A stretch of DNA of 64,000 nt from positions 1,178,001 to 1,242,000 of the forward strand of contig NZ_JACHJU010000002.1 in assembly GCF_014203795.1 (NCBI RefSeq), given 5' to 3'. The notes under the pieces were generated by a model. The model saw only the letters and a list, made by a program, of their open reading frames with translations. It was not told the DNA's origin and did not search any database. The stretch is from Streptosporangium album (lineage in GTDB: Bacteria > Actinomycetota > Actinomycetes > Streptosporangiales > Streptosporangiaceae). Both the position numbers and the translations under genes were made by a program. Below, piece after piece: positions 1,184 to 18,052 of the stretch. Position 1 is the stretch's first letter, and the number at the start of each line of letters is the position of its first letter.

Positions 1184-3583
1184 GTGCCCTCATTCACTGA
1201 GGCGGATCTGTTGCGCCGCCTTGCCGCTATGACGTTGAAGGAGAAAGTGGCTCTGCTGACCGGAGCGGACACCTGGACGCTGACCCCGGTGGCTTCGGCG
1301 GGGCTGGCCGCGCTGGCCCTGTCTGACGGCCCTGTCGGGCCGCGCGGCACCTCCTTCGGCGGTGACACCCCTGCTTCGCTGCTGTTCCCGAGCCCGACGT
1401 CGCTGGCCGCGGCCTGGGACGAGGAGACCGCCCGCCAGACCGGGCGGCTTATGGGCGCCCGGGCCCGGGAGATGGGCATCCACGTGCTGCTCGCGCCGAC
1501 GGTCAACCTGCACCGCTCGCCCCTGGGCGGCCGCCACTTCGAGTGCTACTCCGAGGACCCGCTGCTCACATCCCGCATCGCCGTCGCCTTCGTCCAGGGC
1601 GTGCAGTCGGCGGGCGTGGGGGCGACCGTCAAGCACTTCGTGGGCAATGACTCCGAGACCGAGCGGATGACCTACGACGCCCGCATCGACGAGGCCACGC
1701 TGCGCGAGGTGTACCTGGCGCCGTTCGAGGCGGCGGTGCGCGAGGGCGGGGCGTGGGCGGTGATGGCCGCCTACAACCGCGTCAACGGCACCACCATGAC
1801 CGAGAACCGGCCGCTCCTGACCGACGTGCTCAAACAGGAGTGGGGGTTCGACGGCGTGGTGGTCTCCGACTGGACGGCCGCCCGCTCCACCGAGGCCACC
1901 GCCCTGGCCGGGCTCGACCTGGCCATGCCGGGACCGGACGGGCCGTGGGGGGAGGCGCTGGTCGCCGCGGTCGACGACGGTCATGTCCCGGTCGAGGTCG
2001 TGGACGACAAGGTGCTGCGCATCCTGCGGCTCGCGGCACGGACCGGCGCGCTCGACGGCGTCCCGGCCGTCCAGGCGCCCGCCGTGCCGGACGATGCCCG
2101 CGACCGACTGCGCGAGCTGGCGATCCGCGGCTCGGTGCTGCTGCGCAACGATGGCCTGCTGCCCCTGCGGCCCGAGCAGCTGCGCAGAGTGGCGCTGATC
2201 GGGCCGAACGCGGTCCGCTTCGCCGCGCAGGGCGGCGGCAGCGCGCACGTCCCCCCCGAGCACGTAGTCACGCCGCTGGAAGGGCTGCGCCGGGTGCTCG
2301 GCGAAGACGCCGAGATCACTGTGCATGCAGGCGTCTTTCCGCACGCCAAGCTGCTGCCCCTGCCAGCTGACCTGGCCGTGGACCCCGAGACGGGGCAGCC
2401 GGGCGTGCGGCTGGAGTACCGCGCGGCCGACGGCACCGTCGTGACAGCCGAGCACCGCACCCCGGCCTCCTGGTGGTTCCCGATCATCCTGGCCGACGAG
2501 GTGACCGAGCTGGCGGTACGCACCCGCCTCACCCTGACCGCCCCCGGCCTCCACCGGCTGTCGGTCCTGGGCACCGGGCGGCACACCCTGAGCGTCCCCG
2601 GCCAGGACGACCAGTTCCACGAGCAGCTCCAGGACGGCGACGACATCGGCGCCCTGCTGCTCAGCCCACCCTCGCACACCTTCGCCTTCACCGCCGACGC
2701 CGGGCAGGTGGACATCGAGGTGCTGCTCAGCCCGCAGCGCAACCTTCCCTACCCCGTCACCCTGCTCGGGCTCGGCTACGAGCCGCCACGCGGCACCGAC
2801 GAGGAGGAACTGGCCGCCGCCGTCGGGGCCGCGCGTGCCGCCGACGTGGCGATCGTGCTGGTCGGCAGCGACGCCGACACCGAGACCGAGGGCCTCGACC
2901 GGACCGGGCTGGCGTTGCCCGGCCGTCAGGACGAGCTGGTACGGCGGGTATGCGCGGCCAACCTGCGCACCGTGGTCGTGGTCAACGCCGGGGCGCCGTG
3001 GCTGATGCCCTGGGCCGAGGAGCCGGGCGCGCTGCTGTGGTCGTGGTTTCCCGGGCAGGAGGGCGCGGCCGCCGTCGCCGACATCCTGCTCGGCGCCGAA
3101 CCGGGTGGCCGCCTGCCCACGACCTTCCCCGCCGCCGAGGCCGACGTCCCGATCCGGTCGACTCAGCCGGACAACGGGATCCTGAACTATGCCGAAGGCG
3201 ACCGCATCGGCTACCGCGCCTACCGGCCGGAGGGGGTGCTGTTCCCGTTCGGCCACGGCCTGTCCTACACCACCTGGGACTACGTGGCCGCCGCCGTGGA
3301 AGGCGGTATTGAAGGCGGCATCGAGGTGACGGTGCGCAACTCCGGCGACCGCCCCGGCCGGGAGATCGTCCAGGCGTACCTGGAAACGGACGGCCTGCTT
3401 CGTCTGGTGGGTTTCGCCGCCGTCGAGGCCGGCCCCGGTCACAGCGCCACCGTCCGCATCGAGCCGGCCCCCCGCGCGCTGTCGCGCTGGATCGACGGTC
3501 GCTGGGCACCGTCCGGCGGCCCGCACTTGCTGCGCATCGGACGCTCCGCCGCGGACCTTCCCCTGACCTGCACCATCGACTGA
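1184..3583 (+). CDS. Glycoside hydrolase family 3 beta-glycosidase
   Basis: A protein of about 799 residues with the full GH3 layout. The N-terminal TIM barrel includes KHFVGNDSE and the catalytic nucleophile Asp in VVSDW (about residue 229). A PA14-like carbohydrate-binding insert lies around residues 400-540, inside the second alpha/beta domain (VGSDADTETEGLDRTGLALP). The C-terminal Fn3-like domain follows (GHGLSYTTW, VTVRNSGDRPGREIVQAY). No signal peptide is seen, so it probably acts on imported or small glycosides in the cytoplasm. The GTG at 1184 is preferred because AAAGGA (1171-1176) lies 7 bases upstream; a TTG at 1178 is also in frame. It follows the dead rhamnosidase and precedes an SDR, which suggests use of plant glycosides. 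Substrate specificity cannot be read from sequence. Confidence 0.93.
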   Translation: MPSFTEADLLRRLAAMTLKEKVALLTGADTWTLTPVASAGLAALALSDGPVGPRGTSFGGDTPASLLFPSPTSLAAAWDEETARQTGRLMGARAREMGIHVLLAPTVNLHRSPLGGRHFECYSEDPLLTSRIAVAFVQGVQSAGVGATVKHFVGNDSETERMTYDARIDEATLREVYLAPFEAAVREGGAWAVMAAYNRVNGTTMTENRPLLTDVLKQEWGFDGVVVSDWTAARSTEATALAGLDLAMPGPDGPWGEALVAAVDDGHVPVEVVDDKVLRILRLAARTGALDGVPAVQAPAVPDDARDRLRELAIRGSVLLRNDGLLPLRPEQLRRVALIGPNAVRFAAQGGGSAHVPPEHVVTPLEGLRRVLGEDAEITVHAGVFPHAKLLPLPADLAVDPETGQPGVRLEYRAADGTVVTAEHRTPASWWFPIILADEVTELAVRTRLTLTAPGLHRLSVLGTGRHTLSVPGQDDQFHEQLQDGDDIGALLLSPPSHTFAFTADAGQVDIEVLLSPQRNLPYPVTLLGLGYEPPRGTDEEELAAAVGAARAADVAIVLVGSDADTETEGLDRTGLALPGRQDELVRRVCAANLRTVVVVNAGAPWLMPWAEEPGALLWSWFPGQEGAAAVADILLGAEPGGRLPTTFPAAEADVPIRSTQPDNGILNYAEGDRIGYRAYRPEGVLFPFGHGLSYTTWDYVAAAVEGGIEGGIEVTVRNSGDRPGREIVQAYLETDGLLRLVGFAAVEAGPGHSATVRIEPAPRALSRWIDGRWAPSGGPHLLRIGRSAADLPLTCTID

Positions 3584-3601
3584 AACGGAGTGAACACCCC
3601 T

Positions 3602-4372
3602 ATGCTGAGACTCACCGACCGCCGCGTGCTGATCACCGGCGCGGCCTCCGGCATCGGCCAGGCCACCGCACTGCGGCTCCTGTCCGAGGGCGCCGGCGTG
3701 GTGGCCGCCGACATCGCCGAGGAGGGCCTGAAGGAAACGCTCGCCCTGGCCACCGAGCAGGGCACCGCCGACCGGCTCACCGTCACCTCCGTCGACATCG
3801 CCGACGAGATCTCCGTGAACGAGGTGGTCTCATCGGCGGTGGCTCGGCTGGGCGGCCTGGATGCCCTGGTCAACACGGCGGCCATCCTGCGCGGCGCGCA
3901 CACCCACGACTGCTCGCTGGAGCTGTGGAACCGGATCATCGGCGTCAACCTCACCGGCACCTTCCTGATGACCCGCGCCGCGCTGCCCGCCCTGCTCGAA
4001 TCCGGCCGCGGCGTCGTGGTGAACTTCAGCTCCACCGCCGCCTTCTTCGCTCACCCGTTCATGGCCGCCTACTCGGCCAGCAAGGGCGGCATCGCCTCCT
4101 TCACCCACAGTCTCGCCCTCGAATACGCCAAGCAGGGCCTGCGCGCAGTCAACATCGTGCCGGGCGGCATCAGCAGCGGGATCACCAACAACATCGGCTC
4201 GCTGGTGCCCGCCGACACCGACTGGAACCTGTTCGTCAAGCTGACCGCCGCCATCGGCGACGGCCTGCCCGGCCCGGAGAACGTCGCCGGCGTCGTCGCC
4301 ATGCTCGTCTCCGACGACGGCGCGTTCGTCACCGGCACCGAGATCCGCATCGACGGCGGCGCCCACATGTGA
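3602..4372 (+). CDS. SDR family oxidoreductase
   Basis: A classical short-chain dehydrogenase/reductase of about 256 residues. The cofactor motif is at the N-terminus (TGAASGIGQ), followed by the NTAAIL segment replacing NNAG, the Ser of NFSST, and the catalytic YSASK (Tyr/Lys). The C-terminus ends TGTEIRIDGGAHM as in family members. It lies 18 bases after the GH3 gene and is probably co-transcribed with it, so a role in oxidising a released sugar or aglycone is reasonable inference. The ATG at 3602 sits about 11 bases after CGGAG (3586-3590); a GTG at 3590 overlaps that site and is less likely. Confidence 0.88.
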   Translation: MLRLTDRRVLITGAASGIGQATALRLLSEGAGVVAADIAEEGLKETLALATEQGTADRLTVTSVDIADEISVNEVVSSAVARLGGLDALVNTAAILRGAHTHDCSLELWNRIIGVNLTGTFLMTRAALPALLESGRGVVVNFSSTAAFFAHPFMAAYSASKGGIASFTHSLALEYAKQGLRAVNIVPGGISSGITNNIGSLVPADTDWNLFVKLTAAIGDGLPGPENVAGVVAMLVSDDGAFVTGTEIRIDGGAHM

Positions 4373-4493
4373 GCGCAGGTCCGCGTTCTGTGACGAGGCC
4401 CGGGAACCGCGCGCCCGCCGATGACGGTGACGTGCACCCGGGCCGCGTCCGGCGGGCAGGCGCTACGGCCGCTGAGCTCGCCCCGCCTCGCTG

Positions 4494-4670
4494 CTAGGGC
4501 GGGACGCGGTTGCGCAGCTCCGGCTTTCGAAGCTTTCCCGAACCCGTTCTCGGCAGGTCGTCCACCACGTCGACGCCGATGATGACGTTGAAGGTGTTAC
4601 GGATGAGGTTGCCGTGGGTGAGCGTCGCGCCCTTGGGACGCCCCGTCGTGCCCGAGGTGTAGAGGACGAG
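4494..4670 (-). pseudogene. Fused remnants of an AMP-forming acyl-CoA synthetase
   Basis: On the minus strand the frame reads VLYTSGTTGRPKGATLTHG, the AMP-binding signature that normally sits near residue 170. About ten residues later comes DLPRTGSGKLRKPELR, the C-terminal lysine-containing motif normally found near residue 500. Some 300 residues have been deleted between them. The piece is fused in frame to an amidohydrolase fragment. Neither part can function. It is evidence of repeated deletion at this spot. Confidence 0.7.
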
Positions 4671-5171
4671 GGCGACGTCGTCGACCAGCATCGGGTTGGC
4701 GTACTTCAGCCGGATGCCGCCTCCGCCGGCGGCTCCTACGCCGATGCCGGTCTGGCCGGTGTGGAACAGCGCGGGGACGCCGAGCTCCTCGATGACCTCG
4801 TAGAGCGGATAGGCCGTCCGGCCGTTGGGCGCGATGCCCTGGATGCTCGGGGGGAACTTGAAGCCGCGCACGCTGTGCTCCTCGACAAGCCGGCGCGCCT
4901 CGCGGGCGCCCGCCCTGCCCTTCCAGGGGTCCACGCCGGCGAACGGGATCGGCACGTCGGCGTGCTCGGTGCAGCTTTCGGCCACCTCCTCGTTGGAGAT
5001 GCGCGGGTAGCCGGTGGCGTGCTCGGCGTCAACGGTGAACACCACCGCGGCCATCTTCCGCTCGCGGTAGTAGCCGGCCATCTCCGCGATGGTCGGCCTG
5101 CGGTGGCCGTGCGCCTTGAAGTACTCCTCGCGGCGGGCGTACCCGTGGTCTCGGATCGGCGGGCCCTGGCG
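4671..5171 (-). pseudogene. Amidohydrolase-family (amidohydrolase 2) internal fragment
   Basis: About 165 residues match the middle of metal-dependent amidohydrolases of the decarboxylase/hydratase type: MAGYYRERKMAAVVFTVDAE, IPFAGVDPWKGRAGARE, VRGFKFPPSIQG and ALFHTGQTG. The fragment stops at KYANPMLVDDVA, where it joins the AMP-ligase remnant, and it starts at about REEYFKAHGHRRP with no N-terminal metal-binding HxH. It is a truncated, non-functional copy. On the other strand its 5' end abuts a LacI fragment. Confidence 0.7.
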
Positions 5172-5780
5172 GAGGCTGGGAGCGGGGCACGGGAGATCGG
5201 CCGTTGGGTCGACTTCGATTACGACGGTGCCGCGCGCCAGGTTCTCGATCACCTGGAGGACGCCGGCGCGGAACGGATCGCGGTTGTCACGGCCACGGCC
5301 TGCTTCCACCAGAAGTCCGTCGGCGTCTACCCGGACTGGTGCGCCGAGCGGGGCCGTGAACCCCGAATCGTCTGCCTTCCCAGCCCCGGTGTCCAGCAGA
5401 CGCCCGACGCCGTGAAGGAACTGCTCGCCGCCCAGGTCCCGCCCGACGCGCTCGTCACCCTGGTCGAGGTCAGCCCGCCGCTCCTGCTGGACACGATCCG
5501 CAGGCTCGGCCGCTCCGTCCCCGACGACCTGCTGCTCGTCTGCGCCACAGAAGATCCGGCGGCCTCCTACACCGATCCGCCGATCAGCACGCTCGGCTTC
5601 CTGCCCGGCGAGACCGCCCAGGCGGCGGTGGAACTGCTCGTCGACCGCATCGAAGGCCGTGAAGGCGACCACGGCCGCCTCTTCTCTGCCGACCTCCATC
5701 TGCACGTCTTCGGCCTTTTCTGGCCGGCGGCCCGCGCGACGGCCGGTGGTGTCCCCCCGTCACCCTTGGGTGACGCTTAA
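5165..5780 (+). pseudogene. C-terminal ligand-binding half of a LacI-type regulator, truncated
   Basis: On the plus strand, VDFDYDGAARQVLDHLEDAG, RIAVVTATACFHQKSV, IRRLGRSVPDDLLLVC and ISTLGFLPGETAQAAVELL form the effector-binding domain of a LacI/GalR regulator. No helix-turn-helix precedes it. The frame upstream only runs antisense through the amidohydrolase fragment. The end (LHLHVF then an unrelated tail) also looks eroded. The stop at 5780 overlaps the stop of the intact, convergent LacI gene. It is probably a leftover second regulator of the glycoside region. Confidence 0.7.
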
Positions 5781-6811
5781 GTGGAATCGCGCTCGACCAG
5801 CGCGTGGGGCCACAGGGCGAGGAGGCGCTGCCCGGTCCCACCGGTCCTGACGATCTCGTCCAGGGTCTGAGCGAGCATGGCGGGAGCGGAGGTGACATCG
5901 AGACGGACAGTGGTCAGCCGGGGCCGCAGCAGCTTCGCCAGCGGCAGGTCGTCGCAGCCCACGACCGCCACGTCGCCGGGGACGGAGATCCCGTTGTCGG
6001 CGAGCACGGCCATCAGCAGCATGGCGTAGTCGTCGTTGTAGGTGAACACGCCGTGCTTGGTCCGCGCATGTCCGGTGGTGTCCGCGGCCTGCCACGCGTC
6101 CAGCCACGCGGCGGTCGCGGACTCGGAGAAGGCCAGGTCCACTTGGTTGTAGGGCACGCGGTGGGCGGCGGCCACCCGCTGCACGCCCGCCGCTCGGCGC
6201 AGGCCCATGTCGCGCAGGCCCTTCTCGGCCGGGACGATCGCGGTGAGGGTATGGCTGCCGCGCGCGAGGATGTGTTCGGCGGCGGTGGCCCCGATCCCTT
6301 CGTGGTCCATGGTCATGGTGGAGACGATCTCGGAGGGCCAGCCCGCGACGCCGATGCCGATCACCGCCTTGATCCCCGCCGAGTGCAGTACGTCCACGGC
6401 CTGCCGGGTCAGCCGCTCGGCCGGGGCGAGGACCGCGACCGGGCGCAGCTCGGCCCAGGCGCGGGCGGCGGCCACCCCTTTCAGGCGGCGTGCGCCGTAC
6501 TGGATCATGGTGTATCCCAGCCTGCCGAGCTCACTGTCCAGCTCCTCCATCAGGCCGACGGCGAGCGGGCCGTACGGGATGTTGACCAGCGGCACCAGCA
6601 CCAGTCTGCTGTGTCCGGTCCGGAGTGTCCGGGCTCCGGCGTGCGGCACGTACCCGAGCCTGTTGGCGGCCTCTTTGACGCGCGCCCGTGTCTCGTCGCT
6701 GACCCGCGCGTCCTCGCGGTTGTTGAGGACGTACGACACCGTCGCCTGAGAGACCCCTGCCTCACGGGCGACGTCGAGACTGGTGGGTGGCTTAGCGGAC
6801 ATCAGGTCCAT
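5777..6811 (-). CDS. LacI family transcriptional regulator
   Basis: A complete LacI/GalR repressor of 344 residues. Residues 8-35 form the N-terminal helix-turn-helix (TSLDVAREAGVSQATVSYVL), followed by the hinge region (RLGYVPHAGARTLRTG) and a periplasmic-binding-protein-like effector domain with VFTYNDDYAMLLM and DVAVVGCDDLPLA. The family binds palindromic operators and is released by a sugar or sugar derivative. A perfect 12-bp palindrome (6886-6897) lies in the divergent region upstream and may be its operator. The ATG at 6811 is listed; an ATG at 6802 (MSAKPPTS) is an alternative. It probably controls the divergent hydrolase and perhaps the GH3 genes. Confidence 0.9.
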   Translation of the reverse strand: MDLMSAKPPTSLDVAREAGVSQATVSYVLNNREDARVSDETRARVKEAANRLGYVPHAGARTLRTGHSRLVLVPLVNIPYGPLAVGLMEELDSELGRLGYTMIQYGARRLKGVAAARAWAELRPVAVLAPAERLTRQAVDVLHSAGIKAVIGIGVAGWPSEIVSTMTMDHEGIGATAAEHILARGSHTLTAIVPAEKGLRDMGLRRAAGVQRVAAAHRVPYNQVDLAFSESATAAWLDAWQAADTTGHARTKHGVFTYNDDYAMLLMAVLADNGISVPGDVAVVGCDDLPLAKLLRPRLTTVRLDVTSAPAMLAQTLDEIVRTGGTGQRLLALWPHALVERDST

Positions 6812-6885
6812 TCTGGATCATAGCGAGTCGATAAAGACCAGAGCCCTGTCCTTGTCGATCTTCTGGGGTTATGCTATCAACTGCT

Positions 6886-6897
6886 TATACGTATAAA
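6886..6897. promoter_or_regulatory. Palindromic operator candidate
   Basis: TTATACGTATAA is a perfect palindrome in an unusually AT-rich spot between the divergent LacI gene (start 6811) and the hydrolase gene (start 6989). The CG-centred shape is like LacI/GalR operators. Autoregulation and control of 6989-7681 are inferred. Confidence 0.45.
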
Positions 6898-6988
6898 CGA
6901 TCCGTCGGCCGCCGGAGCTGCCCGCGGGGGCGCCAGCTCTCGTCGGCGGGGTCGCCGTACCCGTCGATCACGTCTGTGAGGTAATTCG

Positions 6989-7681
6989 ATGCTGCACTAT
7001 CGCGAATGGGGCGCCGGTGACCGGGTCGCCGTGCTGATCCACGGCATCATGGCCGACTCCCGCTGTTGGTGGAGGGTCGGCCCGGCGCTGGCCGAGCGCG
7101 GTTACCGGGTCATCGCGGTGGACCTGCCCGGGCATGGCGACAGCCCCCGCGCGGAGGAGTACACCCCCGAGGTGTACGCGTCGAGCGTGCTGGAGTCGGT
7201 CCCGGCCGACCCCGACCTGGCCATCGGTCATTCACTTGGCGGCCTCACCTTGTCGGTCGCGGTCGAGCGGCTCAGGCCGGGCAGGGCGGTCTACGCCGAC
7301 CCGGCGTTTCGCATCCCCAAGATCGACGGACTTGATCTTGGCGGGATGATGGCCGTGGCCAAGGACCAGACCGTGGAAATGGTGCGGCAGGGCCACCCCG
7401 GCTGGTCCGCCGAGGAATGCGCGCTCGAGATCGAGATGCTGGCCAAGTGGGACCCGGCGACCGCGATGGCGCTGGACTCGGTTGCCGGCTCGGACTTCAC
7501 GCCGGAGCCGGTGGTGCCGTCATTGGTCCAACTGGCCGACCCGAGCGAGCTGGTCTCCGAGGAGTTCGCCGAAACCCTGGTCTACAGGGGCTTCGAGGTG
7601 CGCGTGGTGAAGGGCGCCGAGCACACGATCCATCGCCACTTGTTCGAGAATTTCATGGCCGGTCTCGAGGGCTGGATCTAG
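6989..7681 (+). CDS. Alpha/beta hydrolase
   Basis: A 230-residue alpha/beta-hydrolase-fold protein. It has the oxyanion-loop LIHGIMAD near the N-terminus, the nucleophile elbow GHSLGG with Ser82, and a C-terminal catalytic His in GAEHTIHRHL. A cap segment spans roughly residues 105-170. Length and motifs fit small esterases and lactonases. No signal peptide is present. GAGG about 8 bases upstream supports the ATG at 6989. Divergence from the LacI gene suggests control by that repressor. The substrate is unknown. Confidence 0.88.
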   Translation: MLHYREWGAGDRVAVLIHGIMADSRCWWRVGPALAERGYRVIAVDLPGHGDSPRAEEYTPEVYASSVLESVPADPDLAIGHSLGGLTLSVAVERLRPGRAVYADPAFRIPKIDGLDLGGMMAVAKDQTVEMVRQGHPGWSAEECALEIEMLAKWDPATAMALDSVAGSDFTPEPVVPSLVQLADPSELVSEEFAETLVYRGFEVRVVKGAEHTIHRHLFENFMAGLEGWI

Positions 7682-7720
7682 ATCTTCGCGATACGGCTTC
7701 TATTCGGGCTCCTGCGCAAG

Positions 7721-7921
7721 ATGGTTGAACTCCTCGACGCTGGCCGGACGGTTGAGGAGATCGCCGAGACCTTAAATCGGGAAGGTGTGATCCCGCCGGG
7801 TGAGCGGCGCTGGTCGCCGGCTGACCTTGCTGCGGCTATGGGTGTCGACCTTGCCGCGATTCACCGCAAGGTCGACGCTGCCGCGCTTCTCCGAATGGCG
7901 GACCAGGCCACGGGCTCATAA
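7721..7921 (+). CDS. Small helix-turn-helix-like protein, possibly a gene remnant
   Basis: A 66-residue frame, MVELLDAGRTVEEIAETLNR followed by PPGERRWSPADLAAAMG, resembles the small helical tail found near the end of recombinases and other HTH proteins (EIAxxLN plus a short wing). The start has no clear ribosome site and it lies 40 bases after the hydrolase stop. It may be a short remnant of a larger gene. No function is assigned. Confidence 0.3.
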   Translation: MVELLDAGRTVEEIAETLNREGVIPPGERRWSPADLAAAMGVDLAAIHRKVDAAALLRMADQATGS

Positions 7922-8003
7922 CGCCGTAGGGTGCAGCGTGGTTGTACGCCTACGTTGTGAGGATGACGCAGTCTTCTGACCCGTGAAGCGGAAGGAGAGC
8001 GTC

Positions 8004-9605: not shown

Positions 9606-9625
9606 GATCTGTTTCGCCGTCTCAG

Positions 9626-9643
9626 AGAGTGTTGTGTAACTGG
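9626..9643 (+). repeat. Left terminal inverted repeat of the outer IS
   Basis: AGAGTGTTGTGTAACTGG here matches the complement of 16819-16836 at all but one base. The target copy CTCAG lies directly outside. Confidence 0.85.
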
Positions 9644-9657
9644 GTGACAGCGTTCGG

Positions 9658-9814
9658 TTATGCGGCTGCTTGTCGGATGTCGTGGTAGCGGGTTTGCTGA
9701 CCGGCCAGGCGGGCGGCCATGAGCCGGATCATCGCGATCTTGATGAGGTCTTCGGCGTGGGCGGTGGTGCGTTCGTAGTCCCGGCACAGTCGGCGGTAGC
9801 GGGCCAGCCAGGCG
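9658..9814 (-). pseudogene. IS5-family transposase, C-terminal exon
   Basis: After the restored AWLARYRRL the frame reads CRDYERTTAHAEDLIKIAM, then IRLMAARLAG, then a short tail and stop at 9658. This is the conserved C-terminus of IS5-group DDE transposases. The base at 9814 is the first after the group II intron. Joined to the other exon (ending at 16006) it gives WVVERTFAWLARYRRL in one frame, which marks the intron edges to the base. Confidence 0.85.
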
Positions 9815-9876
9815 GTTGGGTCGGCCGAGCGGCGAGGTTCCTGTTGAGCAGGCCCTTTTCCGCTCGGCCTCCCTCC

Positions 9877-9911
9877 GAACCGGACATGACGGTTTCCCGG
9901 TCATCCGGCTC
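9877..9911 (-). ncRNA. Domain V of the outer group II intron
   Basis: On the minus strand a 35-nt hairpin begins GAGCCGGATGACC, has a GGGAAACC turn and ends GTCCGGTTC. This is the typical catalytic domain V with AGC and GAAA-like tetraloop, about 60 bases before the intron 3' end. Confidence 0.85.
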
Positions 9912-9919
9912 TCCAGTGA

Positions 9920-10234
9920 CTACTGCGTGAGTGGTGCGGCGGACTGCCCGGCGTGGATGTGGGCGTGGCAGGCGTCGCAGACCACCAGGGATTTGCGGCG
10001 CCGCTTGGCCATGGCTCGCATCCAGACGGGCTGGTGCTGTCCGGGTCTGGCGAGATCGGCGAGCTTGCGGACGTGGTGCACTTGGATGTTGTCCGTTCGC
10101 TGGCAGAGTTCGCAGGTATCGGCCAGGAGTCGTTTGATCAGCTCCTTGCGCGGATAGTCCACCCGGACCGGCTGACGGTCGATGATGGCCGCCATTCTCT
10201 GCCGCTGGAGCGGAATCCCACCGAACCGCGCGAC
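9920..10234 (-). pseudogene. Outer intron reverse transcriptase, C-terminal HNH endonuclease part
   Basis: The frame LVARFGGIPLQRQ, DYPRKELIKRLLADTCELC, IQVHHVRKLADLARPG and LVVCDACHAHIHAG is the HNH domain of group II intron proteins. Two CxxC pairs and the central HHV are intact, and the stop is at 9920. Its natural upstream neighbour is the block ending ERDGRKPL near 12028. The 1.78-kb IS at 10240-12022 separates them, with CAGTG duplicated at both sides. Confidence 0.85.
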
Positions 10235-10239
10235 CAGTG
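10235..10239. repeat. Left target-site duplication of the inserted IS
   Basis: CAGTG here and at 12023-12027 flanks the IS. With one copy, the RT frame reads RKPLVARFGG without interruption. Confidence 0.8.
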
Positions 10240-10340
10240 AGATCGTTTCATCCTGAAGGTGCTGGTCAGGCGCCTGGTGTGATCGAGTGAGGGTGTACTC
10301 GCGCTGGTCGCGGGTGGTGATCATGCCGGGTGATCGTCTG

Positions 10341-11174
10341 TCATCGGGTGTGCTCGGTGGTGGCCAGGACCATCAGGGCGCGCAGCAGGGTGGTGGCGTG
10401 GGTGGCGCGCATGCGGACCTTGATCAGGATGCGCCGGTTCTTCAGGGCGGCGAAGCCGTGTTCGACGGGGGCGCGTTCGGCACTGATCAGCTGGTTGGCC
10501 TGCTTTTCGGCCGTGGTCAGGGGGCGGTTGCGGGCGGCTTTGCGGCCGGTGATGATGACCGGGTCGTCGGGGTTGTCGTCCAGGCCGACGAAGCCGAGAT
10601 CGGCGATGGCGCCCAGCCCGGCCCTGCGGAGCTGCTCGGTGAGCCGGTTGTGACGGGCGGTAGTGATCTCGCTGGAGCGGCCAGGCCGGGCGGCCGAGAT
10701 CCACAGCAGGTTGCCCTTGCGGTCGGTCAGGGCCAGCACCAACACCCCATGGACCTTGTGTTTCCCCGAGTAGTTCTTGCGGTTGTCGGCGCCGGTGCGG
10801 CGGCGGGTGCGCACCAGGGTGCCATCCAGCAGCACCACTTCACCCCCGGACTTGGCGAGCTTCTTCAGGACGCGGTCCAGGCGGGGCGCGCGGGTGGCCA
10901 GCAGGTCGATGACCTCCAGCATCCAGCGGCGCACGGTGGAGGCCGAGACGTGGTTGGCGCCGGCCAGGTCGGCCAGGCGGTGATCGTGGCGGAGGAAGGC
11001 GACCACGATGGTGGCGATCTGGCCCGGGGACAGTTTCCGCCACCGTGAGCCGATCACCTTCAGATGGCCGCGCAGCAGGTCGGCGACGAAGGTGAGGGTT
11101 CGGGTGGACAGCGGCAGCAGGCAGCGGTAGACAGGGGACGGCGCGTCCTCGGCCGTGGTGTTGGTTGTTGTCAC
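10341..11174 (-). CDS. IS5-type (DDE_Tnp_4-like) transposase
   Basis: A complete protein of 277 residues. An N-terminal helix-turn-helix region (LADLAGANHVSASTVRRWM) is followed by a DDE nuclease core: VVLLDGTLVR (first Asp), IADLGFVGLD (second Asp) and AERAPVEHGFAALKN (Glu). The KNYSGKHKVHG block is typical of transposases related to the eukaryotic Harbinger type. It moves the 10240-12022 element by cutting at its terminal repeats. It appears intact and may be active. Confidence 0.88.
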   Translation of the reverse strand: MTTTNTTAEDAPSPVYRCLLPLSTRTLTFVADLLRGHLKVIGSRWRKLSPGQIATIVVAFLRHDHRLADLAGANHVSASTVRRWMLEVIDLLATRAPRLDRVLKKLAKSGGEVVLLDGTLVRTRRRTGADNRKNYSGKHKVHGVLVLALTDRKGNLLWISAARPGRSSEITTARHNRLTEQLRRAGLGAIADLGFVGLDDNPDDPVIITGRKAARNRPLTTAEKQANQLISAERAPVEHGFAALKNRRILIKVRMRATHATTLLRALMVLATTEHTR

Positions 11175-11279
11175 AAACCGCCATGCCCCCGGCTGGGGGC
11201 GCGCTCAGGCTGTTCGCCCGGCGATGCCCTGGTCAGGGGCTGGTCAGGGATAGCGACCCCGGTATCGGGGCCGCGTTGG

Positions 11280-11804
11280 TCAGGACGACGGGGCGAACGC
11301 GCCGCTGGGGGTCTTGCGCAGCCGGCCTCGCTCGGCCAGCCGTTTCAGCTTGGCCCGGACCCCCTCCACCTGCCCTGAGGCGACCGGCAGTCCGAGCTGC
11401 TCGCAGATCGCCTTGCAGATCACCGGGCCGCCGGCGGCGTCTACCGCGGCCAGCAGCGCCTGATAGTCGGCGGGCAGGTCCCCGGCGTCATCGGCTTCGT
11501 GTCGGAAGGGGATCAACCGGCCGCCGGACAGAAACTCCACGCCCCGTTCTGCCTGGGCCGCGGCCCGGGCCGCCGTCAGTGCCACCCGGTACACCGGTGT
11601 CGGCATATCGGCCGGGTCTTGGCCGGCACCGCACGCCTGCTCCGCAGCGGGGACTTCGGCGAGGATCTCCTTGACGACCTGCTCGGCCACCCTCAGCCGG
11701 TCCAGGTCGTCTTCGGCTTCGGTCAGCTGGGTACGGAGCCGTTCGGCGTGCGCGGTCGTGGAGACCAGTCGCGCGGTGATCTCCTCCAGCAGCCTCTGCG
11801 ACAC
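11280..11804 (-). CDS. Coiled-coil/winged-helix passenger protein of the IS
   Basis: A 174-residue protein not recognised with confidence. Residues 1-50 form a heptad-like coiled coil (RLLEEITARLVSTTAHAERL, LTEAEDDLDRL). The C-terminal 75 residues look like a winged helix (LPADYQALLAAVDAAGG, ICEQLGLPVASGQVEGVRAK, LKRLAERGRLRKTPSGAFA). The gene lies inside the IS, 105 bases upstream of and parallel to the transposase gene. It could regulate transposition or act as a DNA-binding helper; this is inference from position only. It overlaps no other gene and its codon use is ordinary. Confidence 0.65.
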   Translation of the reverse strand: MSQRLLEEITARLVSTTAHAERLRTQLTEAEDDLDRLRVAEQVVKEILAEVPAAEQACGAGQDPADMPTPVYRVALTAARAAAQAERGVEFLSGGRLIPFRHEADDAGDLPADYQALLAAVDAAGGPVICKAICEQLGLPVASGQVEGVRAKLKRLAERGRLRKTPSGAFAPSS

Positions 11805-12022
11805 GGGCGTCCTCCGGCAGCGACACGTCTGTTACCTGGTGAAAGCATCCGGACACGGACGATAACGATCCGGGTCGTGTCGTCGCAGTCGAATCACGGA
11901 AGGTCCGCATTTGTCCGTGGCGGACGATCAACGGCGATGATCACCACCATCCACCAGCAGAGATCACGCCAATCCCAGCCAGGCCATCCGCTTCCACCTG
12001 CGGAAACAAGATGGAATTAGCT

Positions 12023-12027
12023 CAGTG
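12023..12027. repeat. Right target-site duplication of the inserted IS
   Basis: CAGTG, identical to 10235-10239, at the right edge of the 1.78-kb IS. Confidence 0.8.
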
Positions 12028-12591
12028 GTTTCCTGCCGTCTCGTTCGATACGGGCTTCGAAACAGGTCCGCAGCCCGTGAGGCGTCTCGATCTTGGCTTT
12101 ATGTTTGGCCGCCATCTTCGACACCGTCGAACGGTGCTTGCCTGCCAGGGTCTTGAGCATCGAGGTGCTCATGACCCAGTGCAGACGATGCAGCCGGTGA
12201 ACGTCCCCGGCCAGCAGGTAGTACTGGACGATCCCCCGATAGATGGCTCCAAACGTGGCGACGATGGTGTGGTCGTCGCTGTTGATCAGGGCCGCTTGCC
12301 GTTCGGGTTTGCCCCGGGCAAGGTAGGGGACGCATTTGGCCTTGACCACGTCCAGCGGCACGCGCAGCCCGATCCCTCCGTTGACCGCTCTGCGGCCCCG
12401 GGTGGCCTTGCTGCTGTTGTGCCGAACGTTGATCTCATAGCCGAGGAACCGTGCCGCCCGGGTACGGGCGTGGGTGATCGGCGTCTTGTCGTGGGACAGT
12501 TCCAGCTTGAGGTCCTCGCGCAGGAACGCCGCCAGACGCTGTTTGATCTCCTCGGCTTCGGCCTTGGGCCCGGTGAACCCGAGAAGGTGGA
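12023..12591 (-). pseudogene. Outer intron reverse transcriptase, middle part (end of RT, X/maturase domain)
   Basis: The frame continues HLLGFTGPKAEAEEIKQRL, DLKLELSHDKTPITHART, AARFLGYEI, SMLKTLAGKHRSTVSKMAAK and ends ERDGRKPL. These are RT block 5 through the thumb/X maturase domain of a group II intron protein. Its upstream partner ends at YADD (14535) and its downstream partner is the HNH part (10234). The inner intron and the IS mark its two edges. Confidence 0.85.
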
Positions 12592-12628
12592 GAGTAGGCC
12601 GGGGGAATCGCACCCCCGGCCTCTCGCA

Positions 12629-12662
12629 GAACCGGACTTAAACCTCTCGGCTTATCCGGCTC
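12629..12662 (-). ncRNA. Domain V of the inner group II intron
   Basis: A 34-nt hairpin on the minus strand begins GAGCCGGATAAGCC, has a GAGA turn and ends AAGTCCGGTTC. It matches domain V form. The RT stop codon (12652-12654) falls inside it. Confidence 0.85.
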
Positions 12663-13935
12663 CCATCGCCCAGCCGTCAGGACGAGCGCCGAGACGCCAG
12701 TGCGCGAACAGGCGGGGAGATCGCCGGGCGATCTCGGCCAGCCAGGCCATCGCGCGCCGTTCCCGGCGTTTGAGCCGTTTGTATTTCCGGCACGCCCAGC
12801 CCACCAGGAGCTTGTTGAGATGCCGGAGGAAGGAGAGCAACCGGGACCGGTAGAAGCGCCCGTAATAGTTGATCCACCCCTGCACGATGCTGTTGAACAT
12901 GCGGGCAAGGTCGTCCAGAGACTTGTCACTGCGCCGGGACAGATGCCAGGAGCGGATCACCGCTCCCATCGCCTTCATCGCCTGCGTGCTGACCGCGGGC
13001 AAGAACGACACGAAGTGCTTGCCGTGCTTGTTCTTGGCCAGCCGGGGCCGGAACTCATAGCCCAAGAACGTGAACCGGGTGTGCTCGTGCGAGCCCGTCC
13101 GGTCGGCGTCCTTGCAGTAGATGATGCATGTCTTGTCCGGATGCAACTCCAGGCCGACCTGCGCCAGACGCATTGCAATCGCGTCTCGCACGTATTCGGC
13201 CTGCCGGCGGCTGCCGCAGTGCACCACCGCGTCATCGCAGTAACGCTCGAACCCAAGCGCCGGAAATTCCCGGGCCAGCCAGGCGTCGAACGCGTAATGC
13301 ATGAACAGGTTAGCCAGCAAAGGTGAAATCGCCGACCCCTGCGGGGTCCCGCGATCTCGGGCGACCAGGGTGCCATCCTGCCGTTGCATCGGAGCGGTCA
13401 ACCACCGCTGGACATACAACAGGATCCACCGCTGATCCGGTGAAAGGTGCTTGGCGACGGCCTTGAGCACCAGGTCATGCGGCACGGTGTCGAAGAAGGC
13501 CCGGATGTCCATGTCGATCACCCAATCCTTCCGCCAGCACCGCACCCGGCACGCCCCAACCGCATCCAGCGCCGACTTGCCCGGCCGATAGCCGTAGGAA
13601 TCCGGATGGAAGATCGGTTCGACCTTCGGCTCCAGATACATCCGCACCACCGTCTGGGCCACCCGGTCGGCCACGGTCGGCACGCCCAGCACCCGCACCC
13701 CTCGCCCTTGCGGCTTGGGGATCTCCACCGCTTTCACCGGCGGCGGGAAGTACGAGCCTGAGGACAACCGGTTCCAGATCCGATACAGATTCCGGTCCCG
13801 ATCGGCCTCGAACTGCGCGATCGACTCCTCATCGACCCCCGCCGCCCCCTTGTTGGCCTTGACTCTCTGAAACGCTTCCCAGACCTTCCACTTGTCGATC
13901 TGAAACGGCTTGTCCTGCTGCCTGAGTTCGCTCAC
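12652..13935 (-). CDS. ltrA: Group II intron reverse transcriptase/maturase (inner intron)
   Basis: A complete protein of 427 residues. RT blocks run in order: VKANKGAAGVDEESIAQFE, VRVLGVPTVADRVAQ, PIFHPDSYGYRPGKSALDAV, DIRAFFDTVPHDLV, GTPQGSAISPLLANLFMH, the active-site variant YCDDAVVH in place of YADD, and FTFLGYEFRPR. A maturase domain follows (FNSIVQGWINYYGRFYRS, LNKLLVGWACRKYKRLKR). No HNH endonuclease domain is present. It should assist splicing and retrotransposition of its own intron. The start ATG has GAGGCC-type weak upstream pairing. The gene end overlaps domain V. Confidence 0.92.
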   Translation of the reverse strand: MSELRQQDKPFQIDKWKVWEAFQRVKANKGAAGVDEESIAQFEADRDRNLYRIWNRLSSGSYFPPPVKAVEIPKPQGRGVRVLGVPTVADRVAQTVVRMYLEPKVEPIFHPDSYGYRPGKSALDAVGACRVRCWRKDWVIDMDIRAFFDTVPHDLVLKAVAKHLSPDQRWILLYVQRWLTAPMQRQDGTLVARDRGTPQGSAISPLLANLFMHYAFDAWLAREFPALGFERYCDDAVVHCGSRRQAEYVRDAIAMRLAQVGLELHPDKTCIIYCKDADRTGSHEHTRFTFLGYEFRPRLAKNKHGKHFVSFLPAVSTQAMKAMGAVIRSWHLSRRSDKSLDDLARMFNSIVQGWINYYGRFYRSRLLSFLRHLNKLLVGWACRKYKRLKRRERRAMAWLAEIARRSPRLFAHWRLGARPDGWAMGAG

Positions 13936-14534
13936 CTGGCTCCTCCCGGCCCGATCGGATGACCAGCCGGTTGACCACCAAGCGACTCCGGGCGACCCGG
14001 CCCCTTCGCTCCACGCCCATTACGGCGCTTCTGCACTACTACGAGCCGGTCCGTCCCTCCGCCTCGCCCCGGTACTCGGCCCCTTGCAGTGTCCGCTGCT
14101 TGGGGTACTCCCTTCGGCCGGACGCTCCAACACGCGCCCGACACCGCTGAGACGGCAGGTTCCCACGTTCCGTACTGGCGCCCAAGCCGAACTCGCGCCA
14201 CCTTGACGCCGGTCACCACCTGGCCAGCAAGCAGGCACCCGCCAGGCTCATCCCGGGGCAACAACTGGACCCCGGTTTCGATGACGCCGCTACGCTTTCG
14301 ACGTTTCATCAGTGGTTCACTCTCGTTCGCCTTCTCGGCTCACACCTGACGCATCTCGTGCGCCTTTTCCGCGACGCTCACCACCACGGCCATTGAGCCG
14401 CAGCAACTCGCGGTGGTTTGGGACCTCCCCCTGCGTGAGCGATCCCGGAGGACCTACCTCCATCACCAGCACAGCACCGCATCCGAAGCTCGCGATCTTC
14501 TACATCACAACCTCCATCAGCGTTCGTGGCGCAC
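13936..14534 (-). ncRNA. 5' structural part (domains I-IV) of the inner intron
   Basis: This 599-base stretch has no convincing gene. It begins with the intron 5' consensus and leads to the RT start, so it is read as the ribozyme domains I-III and the start of IV. Short open frames here are not supported. Confidence 0.6.
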
Positions 14535-15390
14535 AGTCGTCCGCGTAACGGCAGAGCCGATAGTTGGGCAGACCTTGACGGCGTCGCTTGGCCCGTTCAT
14601 ATGGGCTGGCTCCCGGTCCTCCCGGACCCTGGGCGATGAACTCGTCCAGGACCGACAGGGCCACGTTGCTCAGCAACGGGGAGAGAATCGACCCTTGCGG
14701 GGAACCAGCGTTGGTATCCGCCAGCGTGCCATTCTCGGTGAGAATGCCCGCCTTAAGGAACGCCTTCACCAAGGCCAAGACACGTTTGTCTCCAACGCGA
14801 TCGCGCACCCGATCCATGAGCGCCGAATGCGAAATTTCGTCGAAGCAGGCTTTGATGTCCCCTTCCACGATCCACTCATAAGAACGGGAAGTGAAATGGT
14901 GCACCTCAGCCACCGCGTCATGAGCCCGACGGTTCGGACGGAACCCGTAGGAGCACGGGAGGAAATCCGCCTCGAAAATCGGCTCCAACACCAGTTTTAA
15001 AGAAGCCTGGACCACCCGGTCCCGGATCGTCGCGATCCCCAGGTAGCGGACCTTACCGCCCGCCTTGGGAATCGCTCGCTGCCGGACCGGCAGAGGACGG
15101 AACGTACGGGCTTTGAGATCATCCCGTAGCTCCGCGAGAAACCCCTCCAGCCCGCGCACAGCCTGAATATAGTGGGCGGTCTCGCCGTCCACCCCGGCCG
15201 TACGAGCTCCTTTGTTACCCCGCACCCGAACCCACGCGACCAGCAAGAACGCGGGATCGGTGACGAGATTGAACAGATCATCGAACCGGCGATGAGGATC
15301 ATCACTGGCCCAGCGGTGCAGCTTGGTTTGGATCCCCAGTACCCGGCGCTCCGCCATATGCATGGCGTATTCCAGTTCGTCGGTATTCAC
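14535..15390 (-). pseudogene. Outer intron reverse transcriptase, N-terminal part up to YADD
   Basis: The GTG at 15390 has AGGAGG about 6 bases upstream. RT blocks are clear: RVRGNKGARTAGVDG, KVRYLGIATIRDRVVQASL, EADFLPCSYGFRPNRRAHD, GDIKACFDEISHSALMDRV, GSPQGSILSPLLSNVALS and RYADD. The next base starts the inner intron. With the two downstream parts joined, the original protein would be about 579 residues with RT, X and HNH domains. Confidence 0.88.
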
Positions 15391-16005
15391 CGGCGACCTC
15401 CTGACATTCCCTGACGTCCACTGCTGACTTGCTGGCCCCCTTCGCCATGTGCACGCCTCTCGCGTGCTCGAACTACTACGGGGCCTCCGCCCCGTTCCGC
15501 GCCTTCGACCGACGACGGGCCTATCCCGCCGACCCAGATGGGTTCCAGACGGCGGGAACGATGCGGAACGGTTCCCGTGTTCACTGCGAATCGATCGATC
15601 AGCTTGGCATCCAGCTTTGCCCCGGCAGCATCGCCATGGTTACGCCGCAGGCCTTCACCATGGCCTCCCCACCGGCACGCTAAGCCGGCTTCGGAGTCGG
15701 CCCTCCAACGGAAAGCCGTGCACTGCATCCCGGCCCATATCCACCAGATTTGAGCCGGTGCCACGCTTACGGAGCTTTGTCACTGATTCCTGTTCGTATA
15801 CCGTCTGATCTCGCTCGCCGGACCCGGCCCGTCTGGCAGTGCCGAACCGCCCCGGCTTTGTCAGCGCTGCTTCCCGCCCTCCCCGGCGTCTCCCGGATCG
15901 GACTGCGCTCAGCTCCCACCAGGCTGCTGCGACAGCCCAGCGAGGAGGTCTCACACCTCCTTCGATTCCCAGCGCCTCACGGCGCACGAGCGCCTCGTGG
16001 CGCAC
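15391..16005 (-). ncRNA. 5' structural part of the outer intron
   Basis: These 615 bases lie between the intron 5' end and the RT start and hold no supported gene. They should fold as domains I-III with exon-binding sites. The motif GTGCGCC occurs twice within the first 35 bases, at the 5' splice site and again 18 bases downstream. Confidence 0.6.
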
Positions 16006-16706
16006 AAGGTCCTCTCCACGACCCATCTGCGCGGCAGTAGTTGGAAGCCTTTGATGTCGTCGTTGCGTTTGACGACTTCCAGCTTGATGCCCAGTTCGTG
16101 GTCGGCCCAGTCGATGAGGCTGGCGTCGACGCTGTTGGCGTACCCGCCGTCGACCCAGATCAGCCCGATGGTGGGGTACTGCTGGTCGATGGAGTGCAGC
16201 ACCAGCCTGGCCCCGGCGCGGTCCTGCACCGAGGCGGAGTGCACCATGCAGACCAGCAGCAGCCCGTTCGTGTCGACCAGCAGATGCCGCTTGCGGCCTC
16301 GCACTCTCTTTCCCGCGTCGTATCCGATCTGCTCGCCGCCGCAGGCGGATTTGGCCGACTGAGAGTCCAGCACCGCCGCGGTGGGGGCCGGGTCGCGGCC
16401 GTCGGCCTGGCGCACCTGGTCACGTAACACGTCGTGGATGTCGTCCCACACCCCCAACGCGCTCCAGTACCGGAACCACCGGTAGACGGCGTGCCACGGG
16501 GCCAGATCGTGCGGGACCAGACGCCAGGCGCAGCCGGAGACCAGTACGTACAGAATTGTGTCGATGATAAGCCGGTGGCCGTGCTTCAACGGTCGTCCAC
16601 CCTTGGTCGTATCCCGTACCGGCAGGTGAGCGGATACGACCTGCCACATCGCGTCGGTCAGTGCGCACGGGTAGGCTCGGCGGGCGTCATCCCCGCCAGT
16701 ATTCAT
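16006..16706 (-). pseudogene. IS5-family transposase, N-terminal exon
   Basis: The protein starts MNTGGDDARRAYPCALTDAM. It has the IS5 DDE features AAVLDSQSAKSA (first Asp), RKRHLLVDTNGLLL, LIWVDGGYANSVD (second Asp) and the RRWVVERT Glu motif, where it is cut by the intron. Exon 1 is 701 bases and exon 2 is 157 bases, together 286 codons including stop. The intron lies right behind the catalytic Glu, so no active protein is made without splicing. Confidence 0.88.
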
Positions 16707-16818
16707 GTTGTCCACAAACACGCGATCTTGGCGGGGATGACCCTTTCCCTGCACGATCGACACGCTGAATTCCCTTGACACGCAAGGCTTCCAGGGCCGG
16801 GCAACCTCAGGTAGTCAA

Positions 16819-16836
16819 CCAGTTACACAACACTCG
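16819..16836 (-). repeat. Right terminal inverted repeat of the outer IS
   Basis: The complement reads CGAGTGTTGTGTAACTGG and pairs with the left end; CTCAG lies directly outside at 16837-16841. Confidence 0.85.
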
Positions 16837-16879
16837 CTCAGGTATGGCGGTCGCGAGGCGGAATGCTCTGCTGAATGAC

Positions 16880-18052
16880 CTATGCATGGCCCCCAACGGT
16901 CACCGTGCCGATGGTCAACCGCGGTTCTCCCTCCAGGATCTCTCCGATGCGCCCCACTTGGTCGTCGAGGTCCCGACGTTGGGAGGGGGTGAGCAGGGTC
17001 AACGGCTCGACCGTGATGTCCAGCTTGCGTCCGGAGCGGCGCTGATGCCAGACGCCTGCGACCATGCCGTCGATCAGCAGTACTGGAAAGTTGCCGGCCT
17101 GGCCGCCGGCGAGCGCGCGTCGTGCGGCTGGTCCCGGGAAGAGCAGCTCCCGGGGATGGCTGCCAACGGTGTAGTGGTCGAAGTACGGCAGCAGCCGCAC
17201 GCCGCACGGTGGCAGGGATGCCGCGGCAGTGTCACCGGAGGCAACCCATGCGCGGGCGCCACCGACCTCGACCTGTTCCAGTTCACCCGCGAGGGAGTCG
17301 AACAGTTTGGTCGCCCAACCGCGCGGGGCGGACAGCCATTGCGCGAAGTGCTGCGGCGTGGCCGGGCCGTAGGCGTGCAGGTAGCGGCGGACAAGGCCGG
17401 CGAGCGCGTCGGATGCCGCGGCCGGCTGGAATCCGTGCAGCCACCGCTGCGGGCTGGTAAAGGTGACGTTTCGCCCGCGGTTCGGGCCGAAACACAGCGC
17501 GCCGCGGTGTGCGGCGAGGTGCATGGCTTGCCGCCAGCGTGGCCACATGCCCTGGAATGCGGGCACCACCGGGTCAGTGGCCCAGGGCCCGGTACGGACG
17601 GCCACCTCCGCGCCGAGTTCGTCGATGGTGAGTTCGGCGTCGGCTAGTGTCGCCGCGATCGCCGCGACGACCTCGTCGGTCTGTTCGGGGGTCAGTCGCA
17701 CGTTGGCGGGCATGGGGTTCGTCGCCGGGGGTACCGCGCTGAGCGCGCCGGTCCACAGTGGCAGGTCAACTGTCGGCAGCAGGTGTACGGTGCCGCGCGG
17801 CCCGTACGTCTTCACCAAACTGCGTTCGCTCCACAGCGCGTCCCGGACAGTGGTCCGCGTGGCACCGGCGACGCGGAGCCCGATGGACACTTCGGCGGCG
17901 GACAGTACCTGGGCATGCGCGCCGCACATGGCGGCGACGGCGTCGGCTGGTCGGCCGTCGCGCACCGGGGCGAACAGTCCGTGCCGGTCGAGCCGCCGGC
18001 CACATACGTCGGCCCAGGACAGCCGCGGCACGGCGGCGGAACGGTTGGTCAT
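16880..18052 (-). CDS. Winged-helix DNA-binding protein of the AlkZ-like family
   Basis: A protein of about 390 residues. The N-terminal DNA-binding helices (RRLDRHGLFAP, VLSAAEVSIGLR) and the central VKTYGPRGTVHLLPTVDLP, FQGMWPRWRQAM and LLPYFDHYTVGSHPR are typical of HTH_42/AlkZ-like proteins, some of which are glycosylases for bulky or cross-linked bases. I cannot confirm the catalytic QxQ/QxD motif, so repair activity is unproven. The ATG at 18052 is preferred: GGGAG lies 9 bases upstream, whereas the ATG at 18061 touches it. The gene ends 44 bases from the outer IS. Confidence 0.8.
   Translation of the reverse strand: MTNRSAAVPRLSWADVCGRRLDRHGLFAPVRDGRPADAVAAMCGAHAQVLSAAEVSIGLRVAGATRTTVRDALWSERSLVKTYGPRGTVHLLPTVDLPLWTGALSAVPPATNPMPANVRLTPEQTDEVVAAIAATLADAELTIDELGAEVAVRTGPWATDPVVPAFQGMWPRWRQAMHLAAHRGALCFGPNRGRNVTFTSPQRWLHGFQPAAASDALAGLVRRYLHAYGPATPQHFAQWLSAPRGWATKLFDSLAGELEQVEVGGARAWVASGDTAAASLPPCGVRLLPYFDHYTVGSHPRELLFPGPAARRALAGGQAGNFPVLLIDGMVAGVWHQRRSGRKLDITVEPLTLLTPSQRRDLDDQVGRIGEILEGEPRLTIGTVTVGGHA

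Follow-up and report, generated by a model that had tools for sequence, protein, structure and literature searches.

Group II introns that have inserted into other group II introns are known from archaea and bacteria. In Methanosarcina (Dai & Zimmerly 2003), such introns insert into one another with a tendency toward reverse transcriptase (RT) genes, they form nested arrays, and copies have been lost through homologous recombination, as described in PMC4424553, PMC2882425, and PMC1712230. Thermosynechococcus elongatus has TeI3-in-TeI4 twintrons with identical inner introns in diverged outer introns, which were read as recent independent insertions into dispersed outer introns (PMC2882425). The Tery_4732 twintron of Trichodesmium is a single locus for which sequential splicing in vivo is reported (PMC4649490). 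Here, we analyzed 64,000 nucleotides of the actinomycete Streptosporangium album (contig NZ_JACHJU010000002.1, positions 1,178,001 to 1,242,000; this whole stretch is called the window, and positions are counted within it unless a locus is named). In the window, an IS5-family insertion sequence (IS), the outer IS, has its transposase gene split by a group II intron (the outer intron), and the RT gene of this intron is split by a second group II intron (the inner intron) and by a second IS (the inner IS). Every layer of the structure is on the minus strand. The more general point is that the inner intron recurs at the codons of the catalytic YADD motif in the RT genes of other group II introns.

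This locus is like the Methanosarcina arrays in the insertion into RT genes of other introns, in the nesting, and in the probable loss through recombination. However, the host here is a bacterium, and one intron has entered four RT lineages at one codon boundary. Furthermore, the pairing with the YADD codons is supported here by covariation, and a deletion seemingly left an in-frame chimeric RT. With the twintrons of T. elongatus it shares identical inner introns in diverged outer introns; however, the inner intron there is described as lacking an open reading frame (ORF) and lying between two start codons of one outer family (PMC2882425), whereas ours carries an RT gene of its own and has gone into the catalytic motif of RTs from several lineages. 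Like Tery_4732, it is a bacterial twintron in a protein-coding gene and consists of two distantly related introns, each with an intron-encoded protein; repeated homing from intron to intron is not described in the sections available on that locus (PMC4649490), and splicing in our window is predicted from sequence. Our literature search on nested introns together with transposase genes found no paper. As far as our literature searches show, the kind of event is already known, and the new parts are a target defined by codons in several RT lineages, the covariation evidence for the pairing, and the chimera that stays in frame.

The genome (9.02 Mb in 14 contigs, 99.98% complete, with the window inside a contig of 1.26 Mb) contains nine copies of the inner intron, including the one in the window. 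The copies are 99.9-100% identical, and the aligned pieces have at most 2 mismatches to the window copy. The RT match is full-length in seven copies and in two pieces in the other two. All nine copies lie within another group II intron on the same strand and at one codon boundary, namely after the YADD or FADD codons plus one base, in group II RT genes. The interrupted RTs form four lineages, which are that of the window, that of L021-L023, that of L024, L025, and L027, and that of L026 and L028 (the host intron of the last two is of the RF02003 type). Therefore, at least four insertions occurred; a higher number would require independent hits on members of the same lineage. The inner intron seems to be specialized on RT genes of other group II introns. 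Meanwhile, introns of this genome with 56% protein identity to it (L032-L034) occupy sites without a visible RT. Its own RT carries YCDD at the corresponding site, which was uninterrupted in the copies looked at. In addition, later insertions of about 1.0-2.0 kb, with 5-8 nt of overlap at their ends, interrupt the inner copies in L026, L027, and L028, and the one in L026 is outside the RT gene.

An empty site was found on C2, where two uninterrupted tandem copies (L031) belong to the lineage of L024, L025, and L027. Upstream of the site, L031 is 100% identical to L024 and L025 over 1,450 nt and to L027 over the 188 nt aligned. Downstream, it is 100% identical to L025 and L027 over 694-700 nt (694-696 nt for L025), and L024 aligns over 135 nt only (99.3%). 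The comparison of the filled L025 with the empty L031 shows an exact insertion without target duplication. It also fixes the 3' end of the inner intron, CTACTCTCC, at 12589; the initial annotation had placed this intron at about 12592-14534 at YADD, and its site and the boundary at 14534 were right, but the other end was not. The two L031 copies (about 2930-7283 of that locus, minus strand) are c-type introns in tandem, 2,177 bp apart, and the second begins at the end of the domain V-VI match of the first.

The inner intron begins with GTGCGCC at 14534, which agrees with the 5' GUGYG of group II introns, and so do all nine copies in the genome. Its RNA matches RF01999 (102.7 bits, 14344-14461) and RF00029 (52.3 bits, 12589-12664) above the Rfam gathering scores. 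Folding of the 599-nt 5' part (z = -1.5) added nothing to this. The encoded protein matches PF00078 (126 bits), PF08388 (60.6 bits), and TIGR04416 (391 bits) above their cut-offs, and no HNH domain was matched in it by the protein profile search.

The choice of site could be related to the exon-binding sites (EBS) of the inner intron. The proposed EBS1 (intron nt 269-275) and EBS2 (nt 240-245) have as partners GACGACT and (C/T)TACGC, which are the Y-A-D-D codons. To evaluate this pairing, the 5' parts of relatives were aligned (49 rows, 41 distinct), of which 5 are inserted at YADD of RTs, 1 at a YADD-like motif outside an RT, and 43 at other sites. For the 41 distinct rows, the segment homologous to EBS1 scored 9.8 against its own exon (shuffled exons 3.6, sd 0.5; none of 5000 shuffles as high), and that of EBS2 scored 7.6 (shuffled 5.3, sd 0.3; none of 2000 as high). 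Because the rows are related by kinship, the shuffles are not independent trials. Covariation among the relatives thus supports the pairing of EBS with intron-binding sites in the 5' exon. Since the third position of each Asp codon is opposite a G of EBS1, GAC and GAT would both be pairable. The targets are probably RT genes of other group II introns because the exon-binding sites fit the codons of their catalytic motif.

Outside this genome, the closest relatives of the inner intron were found in Acrocarpospora macrocephala (95.7% over 516 nt, split), in a metagenome-assembled genome (MAG) of Pseudonocardia (82%), and on a plasmid of Streptomyces sp. NBC_01454 (75.8%). The sequence after the intron matches group II RTs in the first two (57% over 37 aa and 59% over 17 aa, respectively), and on the plasmid the sequence before the intron is 58% identical to a group II RT over 251 aa and ends with YADD. 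In the RT tree, the window lineage and the Pseudonocardia MAG were grouped with 100/99 support, and the plasmid row was near. Only 5 of the 76 rows of this tree are labelled YADD (3 of them copies of this genome), and rows without a determined 5' exon are labelled "other" by default; a single origin of the YADD-inserted introns is neither shown nor excluded by it. Furthermore, an intron start of the form GTGYGYC directly after [YF]ADD was searched in 394 genomes of the class and 338 of the family (overlapping lists), and outside the own genome it was found at nine distinct places, none of them in a recognizable RT gene; introns with a different 5' end are missed by this pattern. As a control, the backward pattern was searched too, and it matched twice among the genomes of the class and never in the own genome. 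In an uncultured Clostridium MAG (L101, about 4451-4464 of the locus), TATGCAGACGACA stands before a distant intron whose EBS segments are similar to those of the inner intron in the window; since the long frame interrupted there has no resemblance to an RT, L101 was rejected as a YADD case. On the Streptomyces plasmid (L187, about 5411-7967), a sequence starting with GTGCGACACG, with an RF02012 match and an RT gene, follows near the 3' end of the YADD-inserted intron as one more nested layer.

The outer intron (9815-16005) was initially annotated as one intron. The nesting, the frames, and nearly all boundaries were borne out, but, as judged from its relatives, it is a chimera of two intron families, here called b-type and e-type. 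The 5' half up to YADD is about 85% identical in nucleotides to L230 and 82.7% to L229, which are b-type introns of Streptomyces, and the 3' half does not match them. The relatives of the 3' half are e-type introns of Rhodococcus and other Streptomyces (L234-L237), with 84% and 80% nucleotide identity to L234 on the two sides of the inner IS; their 5' half is unmatched by the window beyond one 40-nt stretch in L236. The same division was seen in the protein. The N-half of the outer RT is 88% identical to b (L229) and 36% to e (L234), the C-part is 83.5% identical to e (L234) and only 38% over 52 aa to b, and the HNH part is 70% identical to e; b is represented by L229 alone in this comparison, and the L230 record gave 88.1% separately. 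The frame is split after TACGCGGACGACT at 14535|14534. When the flanks were joined in a script, it was open over 578 codons plus the stop, so that the open frame of the initial annotation stood and its count of 580 codons did not.

The seam between b and e lies exactly at the inner intron, between its -1 and +1 positions. The codon at the seam is TAC (Tyr), in which the T is as in b (TGG, Trp in L230) and the two last letters belong, as in e, to a His codon (L234-L237 have CAT; here it was presumably CAC), so the joined codon is that of neither family. The other end of the outer intron is also composite: 18 nt like the 5' end of e are followed by a second start, GTGCGCC, like b. For relatives of the 5' half in this genome, the similarity starts only at outer nt 13-19. 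For L229 and L230 it starts at nt 1-2, since both also have such an 18-nt segment; in these two, an 18-nt intron-like 5' end stands before the b-type intron, and more intron sequence follows downstream (an RF02012 match in L229, b-like sequence of about 70% in L230). In the covariation scan of the b part with 20 other b-type rows (some near-duplicates), one column was outstanding (difference 10.2, next best 2.4), and the EBS1 proposed from it can pair at 5/6 positions with GCGCTC, where the 18-nt segment ends, and at 3/6 with GACCTT of the IS exon. Furthermore, the e-type L234 and L237 interrupt annotated IS5 transposases at the motif found in the window, (V/I)ERT(F/I)|.W, and L235 and L236 follow a similar motif.

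We consider it likely that the inner intron retrohomes to YADD of the RT genes of other introns and that the locus arose by nested insertion of b in e, a double insertion of the inner intron, and a deletion. First, an e-type intron would have homed into the IS5 transposase gene (VVERTF|AW), and a b-type intron would then have homed into nt 18 of the e intron. The inner intron, which would insert in sense between bases 1 and 2 of the codon after YADD, would have entered the RTs of both b and e. Homologous recombination between the two identical inner copies would then have removed the 3' half of b and the 5' half of e. Because the inner copies shared one codon phase, this would have left an in-frame chimeric RT (N-half of b, C-part of e with HNH) and a chimeric ribozyme. 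Splicing of the inner intron would restore the RT of its host intron. At some time, the inner IS would have landed before the HNH domain. If the 5' site of b and the 3' site of e are used, six in-frame codons (18 nt) would be kept near a Glu that we take to be the last residue of the DDE triad of the outer transposase, and an active transposase is therefore doubtful. The order first proposed, in which the outer intron followed the outer IS and was itself followed by the inner intron and the inner IS, was too simple, because the 18 nt and the 3' half look like one family and the remainder of the 5' half looks like another; the present reading requires a minimum of one additional intron insertion and one deletion.

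Several observations weigh against this history. Neither a stack that still holds both inner introns nor a reciprocal product was observed, and the loci of this genome that were compared lacked an e-like 5' half (36% aa at best) as well as any close 3' half of b type. The 3' end of the inner intron is TCTCC, not the usual AY, its position being exact through the empty allele and relatives ending with CTCACC, CCGACC, and similar sequences. Two relatives, L160 (84%) and L169 (79%), are inserted elsewhere than YADD. In addition, pairing with the proposed EBS fails to distinguish filled from empty RT sites. The four filled lineages pair 13, 12, 13, and 10 of 13 positions, and the empty sites pair 13 (L031), 12 (L067, L068, L082), or 10 (L071, L079, L096); the own YCDD site pairs 10/13, which is equal to one filled lineage. 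On these counts, pairing strength was rejected both as what decides the filling of a site and as what shields the own YCDD site.

An effect of assembly is improbable in our view, but it would explain the position of the seam, which lies exactly in a repeat with nine near-identical copies. The real locus could be the full stack (e with b inside and two inner introns), with identical 1,946-nt copies collapsed, or two loci could have been joined there; such a collapse would look the same as a deletion. However, the window is inside a long contig of a nearly complete genome, CTCAG is present at both ends of the outer IS, both e ends are at one locus, and the missing halves are absent from the loci compared. 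Still less probable is that the chimera came first and the inner intron later. RTs can switch templates, YADD is well conserved in both RTs, and a crossover between b and e at these codons or a template switch during reverse transcription could have made the joint; however, the seam lies exactly between positions -1 and +1 of the inner intron, and the e-like remnant of 18 nt at the left end agrees with a nested insertion of b. A single intron that homed into the IS and was then entered by the inner intron and the inner IS agrees with the in-frame transposase and RT junctions, the GTGCG 5' end, and the RF00029 match at the 3' end, but is very improbable given halves that resemble different families (searches of plasmid records also gave separate best relatives for each), the extra 18 nt, the poor fit of the b-part EBS1 to the IS exon, and a seam codon combining both families.

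This genome offers a clear bacterial case of a mobile intron recurring at active-site codons in RT genes that belong to other mobile introns, and it contains both filled and empty alleles. The uninterrupted YCDD of its own RT makes self-avoidance a testable question, which the pair counts alone do not explain. Because different RTs are entered in the same codon phase, chimeric RTs that stay in frame can result when copies recombine. Such chimeras could be a concrete and testable route by which group II introns shuffle ribozyme and protein modules, and this bears on the evolution of introns and retroelements. More generally, actinomycetes might have at least two lineages of group II introns specialized on introns (one at YADD codons, one at nt 18 of the 5' end), whose copies would serve as recombination handles that swap host halves in frame and give new ribozyme-RT combinations able to move; we regard this as speculative and rather unlikely.

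Table 1. Layers of the nested element and their parts in the window (1,178,001 to 1,242,000 of the contig)
Feature	Position	Strand	Evidence
Outer IS5-family element including insertions and CTCAG direct repeats	9621..16841	-	Inverted arms; NF033580 and Pfam on N-part of transposase
Transposase 5' part (5' exon), end ...RRWVVERT + TT	16006..16781	-	NF033580, 166 bits; ATG at 16706
18-nt segment GTGCGCCACGAGGCGCTC, taken as 5' end of e-type intron	15988..16005	-	e-type introns begin GTGCGCC(A/G)CGAGGCGCTC
b-type intron 5' half, own start GTGCGCCGTGAGGCGC, RT N-half from GTG at 15390 to YADD + T	14535..15987	-	Nucleotide and amino acid identity to L229/L230
Proposed EBS1 of b part, TAGCGT	15677..15682	-	Covariation scan
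Inner group II intron, 1,946 nt, GTGCGCC...CTACTCTCC	12589..14534	-	RF01999, RF00029; 9 copies and filled/empty alleles
Proposed EBS2 of inner intron, GCGUAG, pairs (C/U)UACGC	14290..14295	-	Homologous segments of relatives pair with own exons
Proposed EBS1 of inner intron, AGUUGUU, pairs GACGACU with 2 G-U	14260..14266	-	Homologous segments of relatives pair with own exons
Inner intron RT/maturase, 427 aa, motif YCDD	12652..13935	-	RVT_1 and GIIM
e-type intron 3' half, first part: RT C-part and maturase domain	12023..12588	-	84.2% nt to Rhodococcus introns; PF01348, 60.6 bits
Inner IS, 1,783 bp, CAGTG duplication	10240..12022	-	DDE transposase ORF 10341-11174; second, unassigned ORF 11280-11804
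e-type intron 3' half, second part: HNH domain (stop codon 9920-9922) and domains V-VI	9815..10239	-	80% nt to Rhodococcus introns; PF21368, 50.5 bits; RF00029, 49.9 bits (9815-9913)
Transposase 3' part (3' exon), AWLARYRRLCRDYER...QAAA + stop	9658..9814	-	NF033580 positions 226-257, 22 bits

The outer IS shows the features of the IS5 family, namely its transposase, inverted repeats, and short direct repeats. CTCAG borders both ends (9621-9625 and 16837-16841). The initial annotation gave CTCAG and 17-bp inverted repeats; both are present, but the 17 bp, GAGTGTTGTGTAACTGG, are the core of imperfect inverted arms of 46 nt. The transposase split by a group II intron was also confirmed. Its N-part is well above the NF033580 cut-off of 110 and also matches PF13340 and PF01609, and the 3' part alone is under that cut-off. 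The split is after 16006. When joined in a script, the flanks are open over 310 codons from GTG and read ...RRWVVERTFAWLARYRR... across the junction. Counted from the ATG at 16706, there are 285 codons, and the 286 originally given includes the stop. In the homologues L231, L232, L225, and L226, RRWVVERTF.W is continuous and without interruption. Homologues without each layer exist. Together with the eight inner-intron copies at other places in the genome and another copy of the inner IS, they make a chance arrangement of the layers unlikely.

The arrangement of an intron within an intron within an IS seems to recur in this genome. In L021 (position 2998) and L022 (3040), the outer introns of the second lineage, which carry the inner intron, begin within a frame reading LFVGDDWAE, presumably an IS110-type transposase.

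Beside one end of the outer IS, the product of an ORF at 8640-9605 matches the NsdA-family regulator model NF053720 only from profile position 163. Only about 38 bp (window 16842-16880) separate the other end from an AlkZ-like gene, so the N-terminal part of the NsdA-like protein seems to be missing.

The inner IS had been described correctly as a 1.78-kb element before the HNH domain of the outer RT, in the 3' half of the e-type intron, with CAGTG at 10235-10239 and 12023-12027. Its match to the IS5-family model NF033581 (70.9 bits) is under the cut-off of 140, and Pfam DDE_Tnp_4 and DDE_Tnp_1 are both above their own cut-offs. The second copy (L008, C1:917754-919546) is 99.9% identical. This copy is flanked by CAATG and CAGTG, which suggests CANTG as the target of the inner IS.

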